From positions 555,643-619,642 of the forward strand of contig NW_006763151.1 in NCBI RefSeq assembly GCF_000264905.1: 64,000 nucleotides of DNA, written 5' to 3'. A program made the translations under genes and the position numbers. Under the pieces are notes generated by a model. The model was not told where the DNA came from, did no database searches, and saw only the letters and a program-made list of their open reading frames with translations. Origin of the DNA: Stereum hirsutum FP-91666 SS1. Lineage: Eukaryota > Basidiomycota > Agaricomycetes > Russulales > Stereaceae. Shown here piece by piece: positions 10,684 to 61,100 of this stretch; the first letter of the stretch is position 1; the number at the start of each line of letters is the position of its first letter.

Positions 10684-13600
10684 TCATACTGCACTACTCT
10701 CAGACCCCGTAGACCTCCTTTCGGTTGACGATACCCCACCAGGACCATGTCGCGATGCGTCGTCAACATCAGGTTCGTAGTAGTCGCGCGCTATAGACAG
10801 CACATCTTTGACCTGTTGTACCAGGTTATCCAGGTTGATTGGGATTTTTTTTAGGTCAAAAATGGAAGGTGAGGCATCCGAGGTGTTACTCGACGCTTCA
10901 ATTGTTTCTGCGATGTGCATAATGTTCTTCGACCACATGCCCCGCACGGTGCTCTTCTTCCATTTCCACAAATCATGCTCCTCACGCACAGTGTCCAGCA
11001 TATTTGGACTGAGAGAGCGGGACCGAACGATATAGACAGCCCACCGTAAACACTGTGCTATCGCGACTCGAGAGGACTGGTTGGTTGACCACAGAGCATC
11101 ATGGTGAGACGTGAAGCCTGTGATGATGGACAATAAGAGCAAGAAGAGTCGGTCATTGTACATAAATAATTCCGCACCACGTTCTAACGTGTCTGGGTGG
11201 TTTAATACGCGGGGGTATTCGTCAAAGAACCCCAACACGGGATGATAGAGCATGCAGTACAATGCTTCCATGACAGGGATACCGGAGAACATGATCTCTT
11301 GTCGCAACGCACGGTTCGCATCCAGATCATCATCATCAATCTGGAGTTGTTTGTCTAGAATCAGCAATATTTTGAGATGCCGGTTAAAATCTCGAAAAGG
11401 CGCCATCAGATATGTTCCTATTATGCTTCTGGACAAGCTCGCACGGGAGTTCATGATCGAATATATGTACCGAAAGAAAGCCCACAGCTGAGGGCCATCT
11501 CGAGGATCCAAGCCATCTATCAAGTTCTGGTATCCCTTTGACAGCACATCCGATTGCTGGTAAGAACTGATAACTTGCCTCACCCTGTCACGAGTCTTTT
11601 GACTCCACCAAAACAGTCCAGAGACTGCACTAGCGATACATAGAGCATGGAGAGTGGCGCACAAGGCGGAGACATTGCGGTTGTTGAACAAGTCTTTATG
11701 TTTTTCGAGCATAGTTATCGCTAGCTCAACACGCGATTTGGACTCGGCGGGAGACTCTGAGTCAGAGGGCTCCCACAGAGTATCGAAGTCCTTTGCAAGT
11801 TCCCAAGAGTGCTTGTGCGACAACAACCTTGTCAGTCCTCGTGAGATCCGCTCAATCTTCTTGCAGAGTTTGTGTTCGTCCTTGGCTTGAGTAACCGACG
11901 AAGCGAAGACATCGTCAACAGTTGATGCCCAATGGCTGATAACACCCCTCACTACATCGTGACTGGCATGAGGACTACGTATACTCTGGAGAGTGTTTAG
12001 TATTGTGGTCATGGTTTGATCATATCCACCAAATGATTGATAAACAATGCTAGTAACAGAGGGTCTCGTTGTAGTCCGCAATAAAGACCGCATTGCTTCC
12101 ACGGTGAAATGAGAAATCTCGGCTTTATTATCTTGAACAAGGGAAATCTCCTGCGCCTTCAATTTTTTCACATTGAACGCTGTCCAGTCTAGTTCATCGA
12201 GTGAGAGCCTGATATGAGTCATAGTGTCCATCCCACACAACCCACGAAATTTAATAAGGCACCACAGTATAGATACAGATGCCAGTGATCGCGTATTTTT
12301 GGCGAGAGCAGATGTGGCATAGATATAGTCGGAGAGAGGGGTGCGGTACGAGCAATTCACGAAAAACACAGGCAATATCGTGGAAACGACATATGCCACA
12401 TATGTCATTCCTGCCACAAGGACCATTATCACGCCGATTGTTTCGTCCAGGGGATTTAGGAAGATTACAAGGCCTATGAAGAAGAGCAACAATGCGGCGT
12501 GCAAAAGAAAAGGCAAGAAACCGACAATGTCGCGCACATGCCACTGTTTAATGCCCAAAAAGCGCATCTGTCGGAGAAGGGCACGCTCTCTGGGAGGTCC
12601 CGAGATGGTGGATGCATAGTTTTGTGCCCATTGCTTCACCAAGATGCAGAAAAGTGCTGTAGATAGGCTGAGGGCGAGACTTGTGAACCAGAATCCGTTC
12701 ACGGCTCGATCGATGGCACTAGCCGGAGCGGACTGGGTAGAAGCATTTAACGCGGACGCAGGAACAACGCTCGGAGACAGGCCTTGAGCAGCAGCGCGCT
12801 GCAGTGCTACTAACTCGGTGAGAAGCGAGGCAGTCGTCTGCGTATAATCGACCTGTAAAGACTGAGACGTCTGAGCCACAAAGGTCGTCACGACGGCGGA
12901 AAAGAGACCGGCCTACGACCATCAGGTGGTTCAGTGACAGTGATCATGGATGAATGAATTACACATACGAAGACAAGAAGGGTGTCTACTGTGTCTTTCC
13001 ATTCATCGACCATCTCGCGATCGTATATCTCCGCTTCGTCGAGGTATACTCTCCAGACACGGGCGTTCATTCCAGTTTCATCACCGAGTGTGTCTGGCTC
13101 GTATTTCGCCTCGTAATCGTCGTTGACAGGCACTACATGTAGGCAACTTGAGCATCAAAGATAGGTATTCAAACAGGCGTGCGTACCGTAATTGGTGACA
13201 TTCTGGAGAGGTTCGGGTAATGATTGTTGATTGACTTGCCCATCGCCGCCTGTTGCGCCTTTTCCAAAAGACTGAGAGGAAGTGTGCTCCACGGGAGCAT
13301 GTCCTAAGGCATTAGGCGCTTCAGCGGCTGTAGTGGCACCAACGTGGGCAGGACTCGGAACAGTAGATCCAGCCTTCGACTGCGGGCCTTCGTAAGATCC
13401 AGATACGTTCGTGACATGCGCGCCAATGATATCAGTGCTGATAGCAGCTCGGTGACCATGAGATGAACGGTCAACTTGGCCGTCTGCAGTCTCGAGCCTA
13501 ACATCTTCGTTCGTAGCAATTGGATCGATGTTATCGTTGCTAGGTACGACGGCCTTCTCGAAGTGTGGATCATTTGTATCAGTACGACTATATGAAGGTC

Positions 13601-15663: not shown

Positions 15664-18587
15664 CTAACTTCCGGTGTACATCTTTCTGAGCGATGATACC
15701 CATCGCTGAGACATAGCTGTACCAGTACTAGAAGGCATAAAATAATCATAGCTGATGCAATCCACCGCCTCAGCAGAGCGTATCAGATCTTCATAGTCGA
15801 TTTGAGACTCGCTTGGATCATTAACGGAAGACAGGTTATCGGAGCGATGAGCGATGATTGTTTGGACGACGGGCATGATGTTTTTTGGCCACATGGCCCG
15901 TATTGTACTATGCTCCCATCCCCATAAATTGTACTCATTAATATGTTCAGTGTCTAACATATCTGAGGTAGGAGGATCAGAATCATGCATCAGAATGGTC
16001 TGGCAAATCCACAACAAGCATAATCCCAATGCATCACGAGCCGATTTACTGGCTGACCATTCTGGATGCCTAGTCGCGAAACCGGTGATGATAGACAACA
16101 ATAGCAAGTAGAACCTGCTGAAGAAGATAGACCTCTCAAGAATGCCTGACCCTTCCCTAGCTTCGTTAGATATTCCGAGTTCTCTGATAAACACCAAGTC
16201 GGGAGAGTAGAGCATACAGTATAAGACGGTCATGACAGCGACTGCAGGCATATGCGGTTCATGGTATGCATCATCAGTGGTGAAGACCAGCATAGTGAAG
16301 GGCCTCCGATAGAGGTATTTACCGAGAAGAATTAGTATCTTGAGGCGACTCTCGAAATCCTGCAAGGGCCGCAGCAAGTACAATGTTTCTCTATATCCAG
16401 CTGTGTCGTTCAAATTGTTCGTAAGATCAACTCGGTGGAGCACCAAATCCGTGATCAATGCGACATAACGTAGGAAAGGCCAAAGATGAGGGCCATTTTC
16501 GGTATTTAACCTGTTGAACAGCTCGTGATATGTCTCTATTAATGTGTCTCTGGACTTCACAAAAACTTCCTTCGGACTGTGCATAAGTGAATAGATATAC
16601 AGAGCATGAAGAGCGGAGCAGACTGAGGATAACTGGTGATCGTCAAGAGACCCTGGATGATTCTTCAGCAGGGTTATGGCTTGCTCGACCCGCGAGGGCT
16701 GCTCTGGTGGTCCAGGCACTCCACAAATGAAATCAAGTGCAAAAGGGAGCATCCTCTTGGGGGCTCGCACGTGCGACCAAAACTTCGTTAGTGCCCGTGA
16801 CATCCTCTCCAGATGAAGGACCTTCAAATGCAAGATCCGCTCACCCTCAGTCCCAGGATGAGAGACCCATGCCAAAACATCGTCAACAGCTGATGCCCAG
16901 TCGCTGGTGATGTCCCACTGCTCATCCTCCCAGCTGAGAACTGCCATGTCTGCCATAGTCGTTTGGTCGAACCCAGCAAGGGACTGGCGGACAATGCTTA
17001 TGGCAGAGGGTCTTGTTGTGGTCTCCAATAAACACTGCGTCGCGGTCGTGGTTAGATGCGAGACCTCGGCAGGGTCATGGATTAGGCGTATATCCTGTCC
17101 CTTCAAAGTCATCATGGAGGATGTTCCATCTCTCATGCGGAAATACTGCCAAGGTTTAGCATTTAGATGGCATACAAAACCAATGTAGCGGTAGCACCAC
17201 ATGATCAATCTCCACATTCCTCTGACAATTTGTCGAGTAAACGCCACGGAAGCGTAAATATAATGAGACAACGGCGTTCGATATGGACAATCAAGACAGA
17301 TTGCAGCCAGGAAAGTGGAGATAGCATAGGCTGTATATGTCAGACCAGCCACAAATATTATAGCCGAACAGATCGCCACGTCCAGGGGGAACAGAAAGGT
17401 GGCAAGGCCAATGAAGAAAAGCAGCAGCGAAACATGGAGTAGAAGGGGCAGGACCCCTACGATATCACGGACACACCACTTATTCACTCCGGCAAAGCGC
17501 ATCTGTCGAAGGAAGGCGCGCTCTTTAGGAGTTCCAGATATCGTAGAGGTATAGTTCTGAGACCACTGTTTGACCAGGATGCAGATTAGAGCCGTGGAGA
17601 GGCTTAGTGCAAGACTCGCGAACCAGAAGCCGTTAATGATGCGATCGGATTGAGCAGAACTGAACGGCGTAGTGGCGTTCAAAGGCGACGCTGGAACAGA
17701 GTCAGGAGAAAGGCCTTGAGCAGCGGCGCGCTGCAGCGCGACAAGCTCGGTGAGAAGCGAAGCGGTCGTCTGTGTGTAGTCGGCCTGCAAAGATTGAGAC
17801 GTTTGGGCTACGAAGGTCGTCACAACGGCGGAGAATATACCGGCCTACGACCATTATTATGTCAGTGTATGCGGCTTCTGACGAACAAAAATAACTAAAG
17901 TGAACTCACAAAGACAAGAAGCACGTCGACTGTGTCTTTCCACTGCTCGGTCATCTCGGAGTCGTAAGCTTCTGCCTCGTCGAGATATACTCTCCAGACA
18001 CGAGCATTGGAGCCGACTTCCTCACCCCATGGATCTGGCTCGTACTTCGCCTCGTAGTCATCTCCTACACACATCAATAAGCGTACGCACGGATGGTTTC
18101 CGTGGGAGTATTCGGAGAGACACGTACCATAACCGCCGGTATTCCGATGGAGTCCAAAAAACGGCTCTTTGGATTGTCTCTTGGGCTCGGCGGTACCGTT
18201 AGTCGGGGCCATCCTAGAAGGATGAGACGTGCTGTGGAGTTGCACAGGGGTTGTAGTGGAGACATTTCCTACATCATATGTCCCTTCGCCGTTATTGGAG
18301 GCGACGGCGGCAGGGTCAACATTCGAACCCGCTCTAGATGACGATCGCCTTGTGACATTATCCAGCTTAGAATTTAGAGGCACATAGACTCCCAAACTCG
18401 GGTGTGCATCGTGTGCATCAGCGTAGGTAACAGAGCGAGGGGTATGCAACACCTCGTCAACTCCAGACTCGGGTTTCCCAGCCTCGACGATATCGTGCCC
18501 ACTCGCAGCAGTACGCTCGACGACATGATTTCCGTGAACAATTATCTGTTCCAGCCGAATTTTATCAGAAAGCCCAGTATCGGACAT
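15664..18587 (-). CDS. DUF6535 membrane protein, copy 2
   Basis: Exons 18128-18587, 17910-18064 and 15664-17844 join in phase to 931 residues from ATG at 18587. The second exon carries DDYEAKYEPDP and VWRVYLDEAEAYDSEMTEQW. The third starts AGIFSAVVTTFVAQTSQSLQ and contains the membrane helices GFWFASLALSLSTALICILV and PLLLHVSLLLFFIGLATFL. Intron positions are the same as in copy 1, so the two are tandem duplicates. The start is uncertain. The frame is open upstream for about 270 nt and reads SSGIELHARSSRLQAPETE there, like the N-terminus of copy 1. However, the homologous ATG (near 18727, MTVPAPLE) is in another frame. Function unknown. Confidence 0.85.
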
Positions 18588-19623: not shown

Positions 19624-21209
19624 TTAGAGCAAGAGGGTAACGGCACCGAAGGCCAACGCTCCCAACATCGACCCAGCGACAACGACCTGTCCAACCTGAG
19701 CCCTCGCGCTAGCAGCGCTGTCCAACAACCCGCTGCTGATAGATCCACCGGCAGCGACAACGGAGCCGCTAAGGAAAGTCGAGCCGCAAGTGGTCTGGAT
19801 ACCGTTGTAGAGGGCGGTCTGGCCGGAAAGCATGGGCGAGTTGGCGAGACCTGGGGCGTAGGCGACAGACGACTCGAAGTTCATGTATGCGGTCATAATC
19901 TCCTGCGTGCACGTGGTGCAAAGTTGCTCGCTGGTGAGGCCGGCGGTGAGGTAGAGGAAGAGGAGGTTGTCGGAGCTGTACGTCGTCACGTTTGGAACGA
20001 ACGCGACCTGGTCGTCCCTCTTGCTTGACAACGATACGCTCGAATACAGGCTGTCTCCGCTGCTGCTGCTACCGGCGAGACGAACAGTTGACGCGGCGGA
20101 AGAAGTCGTGTTTAGGGTGCTGACGCAGTACCTGCCACTGTCATCCTTGGAGCAGATGGCCTCCTTGAAGGGGATGAGAGAGTAGAGGACATCGTAGGTG
20201 CGGATGACGTCCGAGTTGACGGAGGATGTGAGCTCTGCGGTGCAGTTCCCGTAGAAGGATGCGAGGAGGCCGCGAACGGTGGATTGATCGCAGGACGTGG
20301 TGCTACTGCAAACGTTGTTGAGCGCAGAAGAGATGGTAGATGCGGAGGCAGTGCCGGTGGAGTTTCCGGAAGGACCGAAGTCGGCGGTGGCATTCACAAG
20401 TGGGCTGGCGCAAGAGGCGAGAGCAGTGTCGGTATCGAGCGAAGTGAGGAATGAGGAGCAGGTGGAGGAGATGCCGCTGGGGATAAGCGGGTTGGCCTGG
20501 GACATAGAAGGTCAGTATGAAAGTTTCAAGATATCGTCCGACCTGAACTGAAAAGACTGTTGCACAATGCATCGGACAAGCCAAAATAAAAAGACCAAGA
20601 CGCGAGATAGCTAGGCTCGCATGGAAGAAGACCTAACCGGAGTGCGACCTGAAAACGGGCATGGTAGGCCGTTCTATGCCCGACAAGACAGTTTCGAGTA
20701 CGCAACCCTCGACATGACAGTGAATAAGGAGCGATAGGATATGTCCATCAAGGCCTCCGATCAAGGCTAGGCTCCATGCCATGGTGCACAAAGATGTAGA
20801 GTAAGTAGAGTGAAGCCGTGCGGGTCGTTGTTTCTGAATTGGCTTTGAACGTTCAAACCAGACTTGTCTCACCAACGAGCAATCCGCACAACGTTAGGAG
20901 GTAACATGGAGAGGAAGGATCTGGAGTATCTTCGAGTCAAATTCTAGAAAGATACAAATCGTCGAGGAGTAAACCATCCTGGGCGTCGCACCAGAGAGAT
21001 TGGGCAGCGCTTGTCAACTCCTCGCTTTGACTCGGTTTTATACCACCGACTCACAGCACCGCAATCCCAAGACTCTCTTCACTCTCAACGTCACCTGCTG
21101 CGCTCTCAACTGCGCTGCCCTCAAAAAGACCACGACCCCACAAAAAATTCGAAATACTCACCGCGAGGACGGCGGTGGCCATGAGCGAGACTACTGCGAC
21201 GGACTTCAT
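19624..21209 (-). CDS. Secreted, probably GPI-anchored Ser/Thr-rich protein
   Basis: Exon 1 (21162-21209) encodes the signal peptide MKSVAVVSLMATAVLA and ends with a strong donor. Exon 2 (19624-20496) continues ANPLIPSGISSTCSSFL, for 306 residues in all. The mature part contains many Cys (for example CASPLVNATADFG, NNVCSSTTSC, LCTTCTQEIMTAYMNF) and several N-glycosylation sites (NVT, NTT). It ends in a hydrophobic tail (VVVAGSMLGALAFGAVTLLL) after a small-residue stretch, as expected for a GPI attachment signal. Similar proteins (DUF7729-like) are common cell-surface proteins in mushrooms and have no known role. The intron of 665 nt is unusually long, so a missed small exon is possible. An alternative start at ATG 20505 would lack the signal peptide. 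Confidence 0.7.
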
Positions 21210-22013: not shown

Positions 22014-22632
22014 CTAATCTTGGCCCTGGGTCCAGTCATCACTGTCGCCATCTACACTATCCTCAGCGCGCTATGGACTGTTATGAGACCTGGGCGGATG
22101 CTTTTTCAAACAGGAGACACACCTTTTGCCCGCTGGATGAAGTCCAGTCGTCGCTATCGCCATCCACGCTATCCTCAGCGCGCTACAATTTGGCATGAGA
22201 CTCGAAACGTTGCGCATGTTATCAGGGACAGACTTTTTTTCCGCTGGACGAAGTCCAGTCGTCGCTGTCCCCATCCACGATATCCTCAGCGCGCTATAGA
22301 CTAGCATGAGACTCGAGACGTGGCGCATATTCAAACAGGAGACACACCTTTTGCTCGGTGGACGAACTCCAGTCATTGCTGTCGCCATCAACTTCATCCT
22401 CAGCGCGCTGAATTTCCCTTGAGTATCATAATCGGGTTGCCTGTCGGTAATGGACAACATACCTTTCTCTGGGTACATTCCCAATCATAATTGTCATCAT
22501 CGACGCCATCGTCGCGCTAGAGTCATAATGCAGAAGGGGCTGAGAAACTTGCTATGTACGCAACGAGTTCGAGATTACCTTGCCCGAGCTGGCTTGCCAG
22601 CAGCTATTATCCTCGTCGATGCTATCAGTGCG
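22014..22632 (-). repeat. Six tandem exon-plus-intron units of about 110-116 bp
   Basis: The block is built from units of one 54-60 nt exon plus one 51-62 nt intron. The four 3'-most exons (ending at 22407, 22293, 22182 and 22070) are nearly identical over the sequence coding RAEDxVDGDS. Their introns are also alike (GTGTGTCTCCTGTTTGAA shared by the introns after exons 4 and 6). The two 5'-proximal units are diverged but keep the length, the CGC start and the AAG end. This is tandem duplication of an exon with its intron. Confidence 0.9.
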
Positions 22633-22779
22633 CTAAACATTGACCATGAGCTATCAAACCGTGTACTGCACGACGAAACGGACGAAGTGGTAGCCTACCT
22701 TCATCGCCAAGGTCGGAGCGGCAGCAACTGAGGCGACCCACACCAAGGCAGACACGGCGAAGATGGCGAGAAGTTTCAT
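22014..22779 (-). CDS. Secreted Kex2-type repeat-peptide precursor (candidate RiPP precursor), one repeat per exon
   Basis: Seven exons (22699-22779, 22579-22632, 22463-22516, 22348-22407, 22234-22293, 22123-22182, 22014-22070) give 141 residues. Exon 1 is a signal peptide (MKLLAIFAVSALVWVASVAA) plus APTLAMK. Each later exon begins with CGC (Arg), and each exon except the last ends with a Lys codon before a phase-0 intron of 51-66 nt. Every junction therefore reads KR, a Kex2 site. After cleavage the units are TDSIDEDNSCWQASSGKR, DDGVDDDNYDWECTQRKR, AEDEVDGDSNDWSSSTEQKR, AEDIVDGDSDDWTSSSGKKR, AEDSVDGDSDDWTSSSGQKR and AEDSVDGDSDDWTQGQD, then a stop. Each unit is Asp-rich with one Trp. The architecture matches fungal Kex2-processed repeat proteins, including dikaritin precursors. 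The UstYa-family gene at 24108 supports a modified-peptide product. The product itself is unknown. Confidence 0.85.
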
Positions 22780-22866: not shown

Positions 22867-22873
22867 TTTTATA
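22867..22873 (-). promoter_or_regulatory. TATA box of the repeat-peptide gene
   Basis: The minus strand reads TATAAAA here, 88 bp upstream of the ATG at 22779. It is preceded by GC-rich sequence and followed by a pyrimidine/purine-rich leader. The position suits a fungal TATA element. Confidence 0.5.
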
Positions 22874-24107: not shown

Positions 24108-25199
24108 ATGCTCTCCTCAACAAACGATTCCGCAGACTACGAGCCTCTCAAGTCGTCTTACACAGACTTAGACGCTGAGTATGACACTTCGGATGTTGCT
24201 CCATCACAGACCATCAAACGTCCCCTTCGTCGTATTGTCATCATTCTCGCCATTGTCGTTCAAGTCGTCTTCGACTTCCTCGTTATCGCGAATGCAATAT
24301 ACGACACTGTACACAGTCATCGTGTTTCTCCATACCCTGTTGCACAGCATTTATATTGTAGGTATTCGCTCGCTTGTTTGCTCTACGACCTATTTTCGAC
24401 GAGTACTCTGCTTCTGCTTTCATAGCTCCAGCGCAAGATGCTCTTGAATATCAAACATACAAATTTGACAGCGGTTTCGGCACGGGAAGTACGATCTATC
24501 AAGGCGAACCATCTGACTCGGTCGACCAGGCATGGGAGGACCTGTACAGTTGTAAGTTTTCAGTCTCACGAGTGATGACTGCCCTGATCACTGAACCAAC
24601 GCTTTGGTGAATTATTCTATTCAGTCGGAATCTTAGAGGTTCCAAGATCACAAGCGGCCTTGATGGTCAACAATACTCGTCCAATACCTGGTAAAGAAGG
24701 CTACTATATCACCGAGCTTGACGTGTTTCACGAGCTTCATTGTCTGGTAGGTCCTACCTTCCAGCGCCGAACATATCTATTAGTCGTTGTTCAATATTTC
24801 TACTCGGACTAGAATGTGATCCGTCAGAAGCTCAGCCCGGAGTACTATGGTCAAAACATGACGAGACTACACAAGAGCCTCATGCGCCCCGACCATATCT
24901 CTCACTGTATCGATTCGTACGTTGAGATTTCGTGCACGACTACCACATGTCTCCAAGTATTCTGACTCTCGTGATTATCTTGTAGGATTCGACAGTCACT
25001 TATGTGCTCATCCGACATCAGCACCATCGTCTGGGTCTGGGAGGAGGATACACACACTGCGAAGCCATCGGGAACGGTCCTTCACTCGTGCAGAGACTTC
25101 GACAAACTCAGGGACTGGGCGAAAGAGCATCATATCAGTGTCCATTTCGACGACTCTGTGTATATGGAAGATGACTTGAGCATTCCTGTTATTCCTTGA
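24108..25199 (+). CDS. DUF3328 / UstYa-family oxidase-like protein
   Basis: Exons 24108-24357, 24426-24551, 24625-24746, 24813-24916 and 24986-25199 join in phase to 271 residues. A short acidic cytosolic N-terminus (about 1-40) precedes one membrane helix (RRIVIILAIVVQVVFDFLVI, about 41-65). The lumenal domain has the family pattern: YQGEPSDSVDQAWEDLY, then HELHC at 161-165 and HISHC at 194-198. These are the paired HxxHC motifs thought to be catalytic in UstYa-type proteins. Family members carry out oxidative cyclisation, chlorination or hydroxylation in fungal RiPP and cyclopeptide pathways (ustiloxin, phomopsin, asperipin, cyclochlorotine). The gene is divergent from, and about 1.3 kb from, the KR-repeat precursor, so a shared pathway is likely. 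The start uses ATG 24108. Confidence 0.9.
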
Positions 25200-59900: not shown

Positions 59901-61100
59901 TAACGACATAAAACGGATTTTCGATTCTCACCGCGAGATGACCATCGCCGGAATGTCCTTCTCAGCTGTAAAACGAAACCATGGCAGCTTGTACTGCTCG
60001 TTTCACAATATCGACTCGGAGTGTTTAATTTACTCGTACTGACCATGATATCGCGCTGCCGATTATATGGTCACAATGCACAGACCACGTTCAAAGCGTG
60101 TAAGTATTTATTCCAGGAGATCAGCCCGGCCAAATCCTGCATCTCGTTGCGTTAGGTGACGAAAGGTATCATACTGCCCGCGTTTCATCCGCACTCGGAG
60201 GATCGACCTGGATTTTGGAGGAACTGCCAGCATCATTCCCTTTCGTACGGTCTGTCTATTCTTACGCCGTACTTCAGAGTAGGATAATGCTCAAACTCTT
60301 GCTACCGACCCGATTTTGAGTCTACAATACTACCCTCCGATGGGAATGATGAAGACGAACCCGATGTCAACGAAAAGCTCCCTTCATTATCTAACCTCCC
60401 CTCTTTCTCCTCTTCCTCCTTCCTGGCTCATCATCTCCAAACCCGAGGTTGAACTCAAGCCTACTGGCATACCCGTCCCGCATTCCTCCCTCTCCCTCTT
60501 CTTCCCCCTCACCACAATCCACATCCATACCCGCCGGAAACAGCGACAGAGATGACAACTTAAACCTGGGTCAGGTCCGTAGGGTGTTTAGAACTTCGAT
60601 TAGGACTACCCTACTAAACACATAAGAGATCTTCGGATGCTCTGTAGTAGAGCCTGGTGTTTCACGGACGAAAATGACTTTGAATGTATCCGGTCATATG
60701 AAGCAAACGATTCGGTGGATTGGGCATCAATGGGCATACATGGTCATCTACAATATCCGTGGTAGACTGTACGTTATTACATCAGGTAACATGAAACAAA
60801 CAATGTCGTGTATTGGGCATCGCATACATGGTCGTCTATGATATTCGTGGGCGGCTGTACGTTGTAGATTTCGTAGATCATAAGCAGAGTTCAGCAACCA
60901 AGATATACCGATGAGAGGTGGACTACGGAGTGGAAGGGCCAAGCCCTCCTACGGAAAATGATGAGTAAGACCGCGATACTAGTAACAAAAACTGAGAGTA
61001 TGGCCGGGTGCCAAAGGATGTCAACTCACCTACCGTTCTCCATATCTCCCCCTCGTCACCCTCGCTAGTCTCCGACCTGCACCTCGTCGAGTACATCCTC
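59901..61100. other. Relic-rich intergenic region
   Basis: Mostly without coding signal. At 60310-60560 (plus) lies a third fragment of the SNF2/SHPRH-like gene (ESTILPSDGNDEDEPDVNEK, then LPSLSNLPSFSSSSFLAHHL). Around 60690-60870 a short internal duplication occurs: GAAGCAAACGATTCGGTGGA with ATTGGGCATCAATGGGCATA, and GAAACAAACAATGTCGTGTA with ATTGGGCATCGCATACATGG, each followed by GGTCRTCTA and ATATYCGTGG. Confidence 0.45.

Follow-up and report, generated by a model that had tools for sequence, protein, structure and literature searches.

A 64,000-nt stretch of the Stereum hirsutum genome, hereafter called the window, contains a gene modelled as a secreted precursor of six related Asp-rich peptides, in which each peptide is encoded by an exon of its own and every intron falls between the Lys and the Arg of a dibasic site. 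Taking sequence evidence from the gene, its surroundings and the remainder of the genome together, we put the probability at roughly two in three that this gene specifies a secreted, KEX2-processed repeat precursor that works with a neighbouring UstYa protein, that its products are probably a family of modified (RiPP) peptides, and that copies of the peptide were added as exon-plus-intron modules. We class it as a UstYa-linked KEX2-processed repeat protein (KEP), most likely a RiPP precursor that would carry Trp rather than Tyr in its core.

Gene model and the series of K/R-splitting introns

The precursor gene occupies positions 22779 to 22014 on the minus strand of the window and comprises seven exons and six introns, giving a product of 141 aa that is open from ATG to stop. 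Exon 1 (22699–22779) encodes MKLLAIFAVSALVWVASVAAAPTLAMK, consisting of a putative signal peptide, judged by eye from a hydrophobic stretch with an A-x-A-type end, followed by APTLAMK. The six units then follow one by one on the same strand: unit 1, RTDSIDEDNSCWQASSGK, in exon 2 (22579–22632); unit 2, RDDGVDDDNYDWECTQRK, in exon 3 (22463–22516); unit 3, RAEDEVDGDSNDWSSSTEQK, in exon 4 (22348–22407); unit 4, RAEDIVDGDSDDWTSSSGKK, in exon 5 (22234–22293); unit 5, RAEDSVDGDSDDWTSSSGQK, in exon 6 (22123–22182); and unit 6 together with the stop codon, RAEDSVDGDSDDWTQGQD*, in exon 7 (22014–22070). They are separated by intron 1 (22633–22698, GTAGGC..TAG), intron 2 (22517–22578, GTAATC..TAG), intron 3 (22408–22462, GTATGT..CAG), intron 4 (22294–22347, GTGTGT..TAG), intron 5 (22183–22233, with the unusual donor GTCTGT) and intron 6 (22071–22122, GTGTGT..TAG), which measure 66, 62, 55, 54, 51 and 52 nt, respectively. 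All six introns are of the GT..AG type, lie in phase 0 and split a K/R pair, the preceding codon being AAG in five cases and AAA at intron 5, and the following codon being CGC for Arg without exception. The spliced product, which reads MKLLAIFAVSALVWVASVAAAPTLAMKR, then TDSIDEDNSCWQASSGKR, DDGVDDDNYDWECTQRKR, AEDEVDGDSNDWSSSTEQKR, AEDIVDGDSDDWTSSSGKKR, AEDSVDGDSDDWTSSSGQKR and AEDSVDGDSDDWTQGQD, carries KR at all six junctions and hence consists of similar units parted by dibasic sites, as is characteristic of KEPs. The units encoded by exons 2 to 7 are Asp-rich, comprise 18, 18, 20, 20, 20 and 18 residues and contain exactly one Trp each; they start with TDS, DDG or AED and share the motif [VI]-D-x-D-[NS]-x-[CD]-W, and Tyr occurs in one of them only. 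The gene model thereby bears out the preliminary description of this DNA, which had placed six phase-0 introns between a Lys codon and CGC at these coordinates and on this strand and had assigned one Asp-rich, single-Trp unit of 18–20 residues to each exon from the second onwards.

A putative core promoter element, TATAAA (22868..22873, minus strand), is located 94 nt upstream of the ATG. The model has two weak points. The donor of intron 5 is poor, which we count against our reading, and without splicing at this position the frame stops at the fourth codon of the intron; furthermore, exons 2 and 3 bear only a loose resemblance to exons 4–7. The length of every exon is a multiple of three, and because the introns are in phase 0, skipping or duplication of an internal exon would keep the frame and leave KR at the junction. 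It would follow directly from these exon lengths and this intron phase that, as proposed earlier, units can be gained or lost with frame and cleavage sites intact.

Is such a series more than a product of chance? In general, AAG is common before splice donors, and a Lys codon of this sequence resembles the usual end of an exon. An intron at a KR site may therefore be easy to gain or to keep, and once it is there, duplication of exon plus intron would copy a complete, in-frame and cleavable unit. A search for chains of internal exons that open with an Arg codon behind AG, close with a basic codon before a GT donor and are joined by introns of 45–130 nt returned a chain of four at the precursor gene (exon 2 was missed, its donor GTAATC lying outside the donor pattern). 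Of the 40 real strands covered, namely both strands of the window and of 19 loci of about 10 kb, two of which overlap, the remaining 39 gave no chain longer than one, and the same was true of both strands of 30 dinucleotide shuffles of the window. In the complete assembly (45,982,361 bases in 38 contigs), the pattern AAG/GTRNGT-N(30-60)-YAG/CGC, in which slashes denote exon/intron borders, occurred 58 times compared with 67 times in the reversed control, so that there is no genome-wide excess of K/R-splitting introns, and the only matches less than 1 kb apart on one strand were the three in the precursor gene. A lone K/R-splitting intron is therefore ordinary, and a series of them is not. The six junctions do not represent six independent events, as some of the introns are copies of one another.

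Duplication of the exon-plus-intron module and constraint on the core

A segment of 105 nt covering both exon and intron sequence is repeated ungapped, with 85% and 68% identity, at spacings of 111 and 114 nt. In alignments of the introns, intron 4 matched introns 5 and 6 with z scores of 8.9 and 10.0, introns 5 and 6 matched each other with a z score of 3.2, and the remaining twelve intron pairs of the gene reached 0.5–4.9, the highest value being that for introns 1 and 3; the percent identity of the gapped intron alignments (65–80%) had no discriminating power. Judged from these repeats, the last units of the precursor arose by tandem duplication of an exon-plus-intron module of 111–114 bp. 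The first two units likely share this origin, though their introns no longer reveal it clearly.

Codon-level comparisons point to selection on part of the unit. Exons 6 and 7 show five synonymous and no non-synonymous changes across the 13-codon Arg-to-Trp core, and in this core the six pairs among exons 4–7 show dN values of 0–0.13 with dS ranging from 0.37 to saturated, as compared to a dN of 0.50 and a dS of 2.5 for exons 2 and 3. Two observations count against our reading: raw counts for the three core comparisons involving exon 4 give four to five differing amino acid-changing codons versus two synonymous ones, and over the whole of exons 4–7, amino acid-changing codon differences exceed synonymous ones in five of the six pairs. 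The latter excess arises because the tail after the Trp appears free to vary. By the pattern of substitutions, then, constraint is confined to the R..W core of the units. Exon duplication as the means by which the peptide is multiplied, as had been proposed earlier, is supported at least for the last units by the 105-nt repeat, the alignment of introns 4, 5 and 6 and core dN values below dS. DNA and protein searches of the same genome matched only the gene's own exons and yielded no further copies. No homologue of the precursor was found at an E value of 1 or better among 24 candidates from a protein database, a result that we count against our reading, bearing in mind that so fragmented a gene would rarely be predicted.

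The adjacent UstYa gene and precursors at other UstYa loci

A gene for a UstYa protein (DUF3328; Pfam PF11807, E = 8.4e-55) is located head to head with the precursor gene, its start lying 1.3 kb from the precursor ATG. This gene (24108..25199, plus strand) is apparently intact and was modelled with five exons (24108–24357, 24426–24551, 24625–24746, 24813–24916 and 24986–25199; the borders of exons 1 and 4 were picked among several options) that encode 271 aa with one N-terminal hydrophobic, presumably membrane-spanning segment and two HxxHC motifs, HELHC and HISHC. In the available part of one source (PMC12048977), two such motifs serve as a criterion for DUF3328 proteins. The preliminary description lacked this gene, which bears on the likely class of the precursor. 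A genome search with PF11807 gave at least 30 exon-level matches, grouped by eye into about 24 genes, one of them in the window, and with 24 genes evenly spread over 46 Mb the chance of finding one this close to a given spot is about 0.1%. The top database match of the window UstYa stems from Sanghuangporus vaninii (52% identity), and further matches come from Crucibulum, Mycena, Fomitiporia, Pleurotus and others. A close relative (P0051; 75% identity over 31%) is encoded on a 6266-base metagenome contig that may carry an orthologous precursor; viral contigs, screened with a view to its neighbourhood, yielded no relative.

Among the ORFs near the precursor, Pfam revealed DUF6535, F-box and HLH family members. 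Tyrosinases, P450s and methyltransferases were absent from the 26 distinct proteins and ORFs scanned, which include 22 of the 60 ORFs of at least 95 aa at 12,900–36,500, and this counts against our reading. Two neighbouring DUF6535 genes lie at 10684–12912 and 15664–17844 (minus strand). Downstream of the precursor and on the same strand, an ORF for 293–295 aa without a Pfam match (19624–20511) is rich in Ser, Thr and Ala and may encode a secreted protein. A short direct repeat of about 88–93 nt was noted at 60689–60863 by protein-level self-comparison. The genome contains at least one match to P_proprotein above the Pfam cut-off and hence a kexin-type gene, as is expected of an organism with KEPs; by eye, the surrounding ORFs contain subtilase-like and membrane segments, including what we take to be the subtilase catalytic motifs. 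Together with the gene model, this supports the earlier view of the gene as a precursor of secreted, KR-separated repeats.

We then inspected about 10 kb around each of the other UstYa genes (18 regions, representing 17 distinct loci) and, at four of the 17, read precursors that are spread over several exons and have dissimilar cores: L022 (C4), L028 (C12), L030 (C1:634k) and L018 (C1:254k). In the first three of these, most of the modelled repeats own one exon each. The L022 precursor (L022:6315-6739, plus strand; model incomplete at the exon 1 donor) has YEIG-containing cores (NNYEIGYSDYQGA), and its exons 2–4 correspond to one unit each, APTGPNNYEIGYSDYQGAKR, SPTGPNNYEIGYSDYQGAKR and SPEGPEDYEEPYSD*; both introns between units interrupt the Arg codon of KR in phase 1 (AAGC, then GTCAGT..CAG, then GN, with GTCAGT donors). 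For L028 (L028:3160-2057, minus strand), ten exons were modelled, with a provisional border between exons 1 and 2. A leader is followed by six units of the form KR-AIGASVYYMSEEEEA-KR-SEEE with the core AIGASVYYM; four phase-0 exons of 69 nt are each one unit long and begin mid-core (AIGA, then SVYYM), and the Arg codon of KR is interrupted by two additional introns in phase 1, which create two micro-exons of 14 nt. The L030 precursor (L030:2368-1584, minus strand; 3′ end incomplete, with no stop reached) consists of five Pro/Gly-containing units of the ARDTPLPGAFVEGVGVTSDTSDFE type, the last of which is degenerate, with phase-1 introns near the unit boundaries and mostly monobasic boundaries. 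At L018, AAALxxPQPDxVFK recurs over at least four small exons; the model is incomplete in its 3′ part and does not show an exon-per-unit pattern. When the precursors were compared by blastp, no match below an E value of 0.1 appeared. A homologue of the L028 precursor at E 0.1 or better was likewise absent from the best 7994 database candidates by shared words. The units of L028 (dN 0.04–0.10, dS 0.65 to saturated, six pairs) and L022 (dN 0.02, dS 2.2) show the same kind of constraint as the last units of the window gene, and the single pair from L030 is less clear (dN 0.22, dS 0.59).

Candidate single-unit secreted precursors near UstYa were noticed at L015:6632-6864 (plus strand), with a TATA box at −100, and at L031:1772 to about 1970 (plus strand), with a TATA box at about −105 and seemingly an intron at KR. 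At the remaining 11 of the 17 loci no precursor was recognised. Five of the seven candidates (window, L015, L022, L028 and L030) face a UstYa gene head to head; the one at L018 sits between two UstYa genes and that at L031 is on the same strand as its UstYa. As precursors were sought almost only beside UstYa, their linkage to it is partly built in. The sequence TATA[AT][AG] occurs at −94 to −107 in five of the seven candidates and at −52 at L018, and is absent from the 200 nt considered at L030; we count in favour of our reading that the TATA box of the window gene, at −94, is placed similarly to those of four of the other six candidates.

A detector for repeats as such fired in the window, in five of the 18 UstYa regions (L014, L022, L028, L030 and L031) and in one of six other regions (L034), and remained silent in L032, L033 and L035–L037. 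Repeat arrays are therefore not visibly enriched near UstYa by this measure (5/18 versus 1/6, with a small random control of five regions), and as the detector is unspecific, we relied on the leader, the splice and basic sites and constraint at the codon level. Tandem arrays with long units of about 281 and 169 nt at L014:430-1280 (minus strand) and L034:5700-6950, respectively, are probably non-coding. On reading, neither the L014 nor the L020 repeats were recognised as precursors, and leader candidates in L014, L021 and L023 were not accompanied by a clear repeat precursor. A search of the loci for KEP ORFs uninterrupted by introns gave only two hits, one in L031 that is of low complexity and another that reads the window gene out of frame.

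Proposed maturation, alternative readings and wider meaning

How might the precursor mature? The spliced mRNA would encode the signal peptide and six units, and the product would enter the secretory pathway. UstYa, a membrane protein, would then act on the motif [VI]-D-x-D-[NS]-x-[CD]-W, with the Trp as its most likely target and the Val/Ile as a further possible one; taking the Tyr-Ile link of ustiloxins purely as an analogy, a link made by UstYa could involve the Trp and the branched Val/Ile. Kexin would cut after each KR and a carboxypeptidase would trim the basic tail, with the release of six related Asp-rich peptides of 15–18 residues. Copy number would grow by tandem duplication of the module of about 111–114 bp, and since the edges of the module coincide with the KR site, each duplication or loss would preserve frame, splicing and cleavage. 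Precedents for the enzymatic steps come from the dikaritins: DUF3328 proteins are described as indispensable for cyclisation of the ustiloxin, asperipin-2a and phomopsin cores (PMC7329392), and dikaritin cores as released by KEX2 and KEX1 (PMC9769878).

With KEPs (Le Marquer 2019; Umemura 2020; Vogt 2022) the window gene shares the hydrophobic leader, the similar KR-separated units and the kexin-type gene in the genome; it differs in that each unit is an exon of its own with an intron within the KR site. With the dikaritins ustiloxin, phomopsin and asperipin-2a it shares the pairing of a repeat precursor with a nearby DUF3328 gene whose protein has two HxxHC motifs, whereas its cores have Trp and acidic residues, its precursor is multi-exonic, and one UstYa gene and no tyrosinase of the UstQ type are present among the ORFs scanned (22 of 60). 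Tyr is the residue cross-linked in characterised dikaritins, so that its absence from five of the six units counts against our reading, and with Tyr in a single core we do not claim membership in the strict, Tyr-linked dikaritins.

Several other readings deserve consideration. The most serious of them, which we regard as unlikely, holds that the gene is a linear KEP from which kexin releases six unmodified acidic peptides and that the adjacent UstYa serves another substrate. It would fit the lack of Tyr in five of six units, the detection of linear peptides ending in ..AADW in mushrooms (PMC9769878, in the part available) and the figure that a DUF3328 gene is among the nearest genes of only 103 of 1680 basidiomycete KEPs (PMC7329392, likewise). 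What speaks for modification by UstYa instead is its head-to-head position at 1.3 kb, repeated at L015, L022, L028 and L030; these four were found by looking beside UstYa and therefore back the orientation more than the linkage. A relation to alpha-pheromone-like KEPs can be dismissed, as the units begin with TDS, DDG or AED and show no runs of XA/XP dipeptides (the STE13 motif) after the KEX2 site, which one source gives as the mark of that group (PMC9769878, available passages).

That the protein, secreted and Asp-rich, stays uncut, for example as a cation-binding or cell-wall component whose D-x-D-x-D pattern could bind calcium, and that KR is a mere by-product of AAG/GT donors followed by CGC, gains something from the general frequency of AAG before donors; we nevertheless hold it to be improbable, given that CGC follows all six introns though introns 1–3 are not clearly related to introns 4–6, and given that KR likewise delimits the units of L022 and L028, single basic residues doing so for the most part at L030. 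Still less probable is a decaying pseudogene of such a precursor: the weak donor of intron 5 and the divergence of exons 2 and 3 would agree with decay, and against it stand seven exons that are open and in frame, introns that all obey GT..AG, exon 6 and 7 cores that differ synonymously only, and an open UstYa model. A non-coding minisatellite that mimics exons we consider hardly credible; arrays of this kind do exist in the genome, such as that of about 169 nt at the control locus L034, and yet the exon 6/7 core differences fall on the synonymous sites of the one frame, and a hydrophobic leader and a TATA box are found where they would be expected.

The preliminary description had also stated that no precursor with this layout was known. 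For the fungal literature this stands as far as the passages at hand reach: the KEP papers (Le Marquer 2019; Umemura 2020; Vogt 2022) do not describe, in their available parts and under the words intron, exon and splic, how the repeats are laid out over exons; the two 'intron' passages in papers on KEPs and fungal RiPPs concern cDNA cloning and amatoxin clusters rather than repeat layout; and an exon-per-peptide arrangement in fungi was not found in the accessible portions of PMC9769878, PMC7329392, PMC6339444, PMC12048977, PMC7099791, PMC9233826, PMC2853521, PMC8786786, PMC5293756, PMC6514808, PMC10885120 and PMC11333574, nor was there a pointer to it among the titles and abstract starts listed. 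Within the genome itself, the layout is not unique to the window gene: roughly one repeat per exon is found at L022, L028 and L030 too, the exons having their edges elsewhere in the unit (L028, L030) or the introns lying in the Arg codon of KR (L022). The precursors at all four multi-exon loci resemble the window gene in having units spread over tandem small exons with UstYa nearby; they differ from it in where the introns fall, namely within the Arg codon at L022, within the core at L028, at boundaries that are mostly monobasic at L030 and at other places at L018.

Two further systems invite comparison, each seen through part of its source. The SP7-like effectors of arbuscular mycorrhizal fungi are fungal secreted repeat proteins with a conserved [KR]R motif in their units; they have one conserved intron before the first repeat, the passages available make no mention of per-repeat introns, and they are studied as whole proteins in plant nuclei (PMC11333574). 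In the nasonins of Nasonia, a single exon codes for each repeat, as in our case, and the genes were multiplied by exon duplication; these are animal proteins with defensin-like domains and carry no processing signals between repeats (PMC2853521). KEPs, dikaritins and the exon duplication of peptide units in an insect were thus known, and what appears new, measured against these passages, are per-unit exons with K/R-split introns in a fungal precursor. The window gene would be a clear case of exon duplication adding peptide copies, in which splice site, reading frame and protease site coincide.

A wider claim can be put forward tentatively, and we believe it somewhat less than we doubt it. In intron-rich basidiomycetes, precursors of the UstYa type may commonly have one exon per peptide, a state that they would have reached independently on several occasions; the number and mix of the peptides would then be set by exon duplication and possibly also by in-frame skipping of exons. 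Gene prediction would miss such precursors, which would explain why few basidiomycete KEPs are linked to DUF3328 genes. This claim of commonly exon-modular, under-annotated precursors draws on one genome, in which precursors with repeats become legible near UstYa at five loci (the window, L022, L028 and L030, with L018 the least certain) only when exons of 14–81 nt are joined. In the available part of the survey by Umemura (PMC7329392), DUF3328 genes are near 1647 of 5372 ascomycete KEPs versus 103 of 1680 in basidiomycetes, and it was proposed that in Basidiomycota the cyclisation motif differs or KEP cyclisation hardly occurs. If the arrangement described here were general, the low basidiomycete figure may partly be an artefact of gene prediction, and the missing peptides could be found via tandem exon-plus-intron repeats head to head with UstYa.
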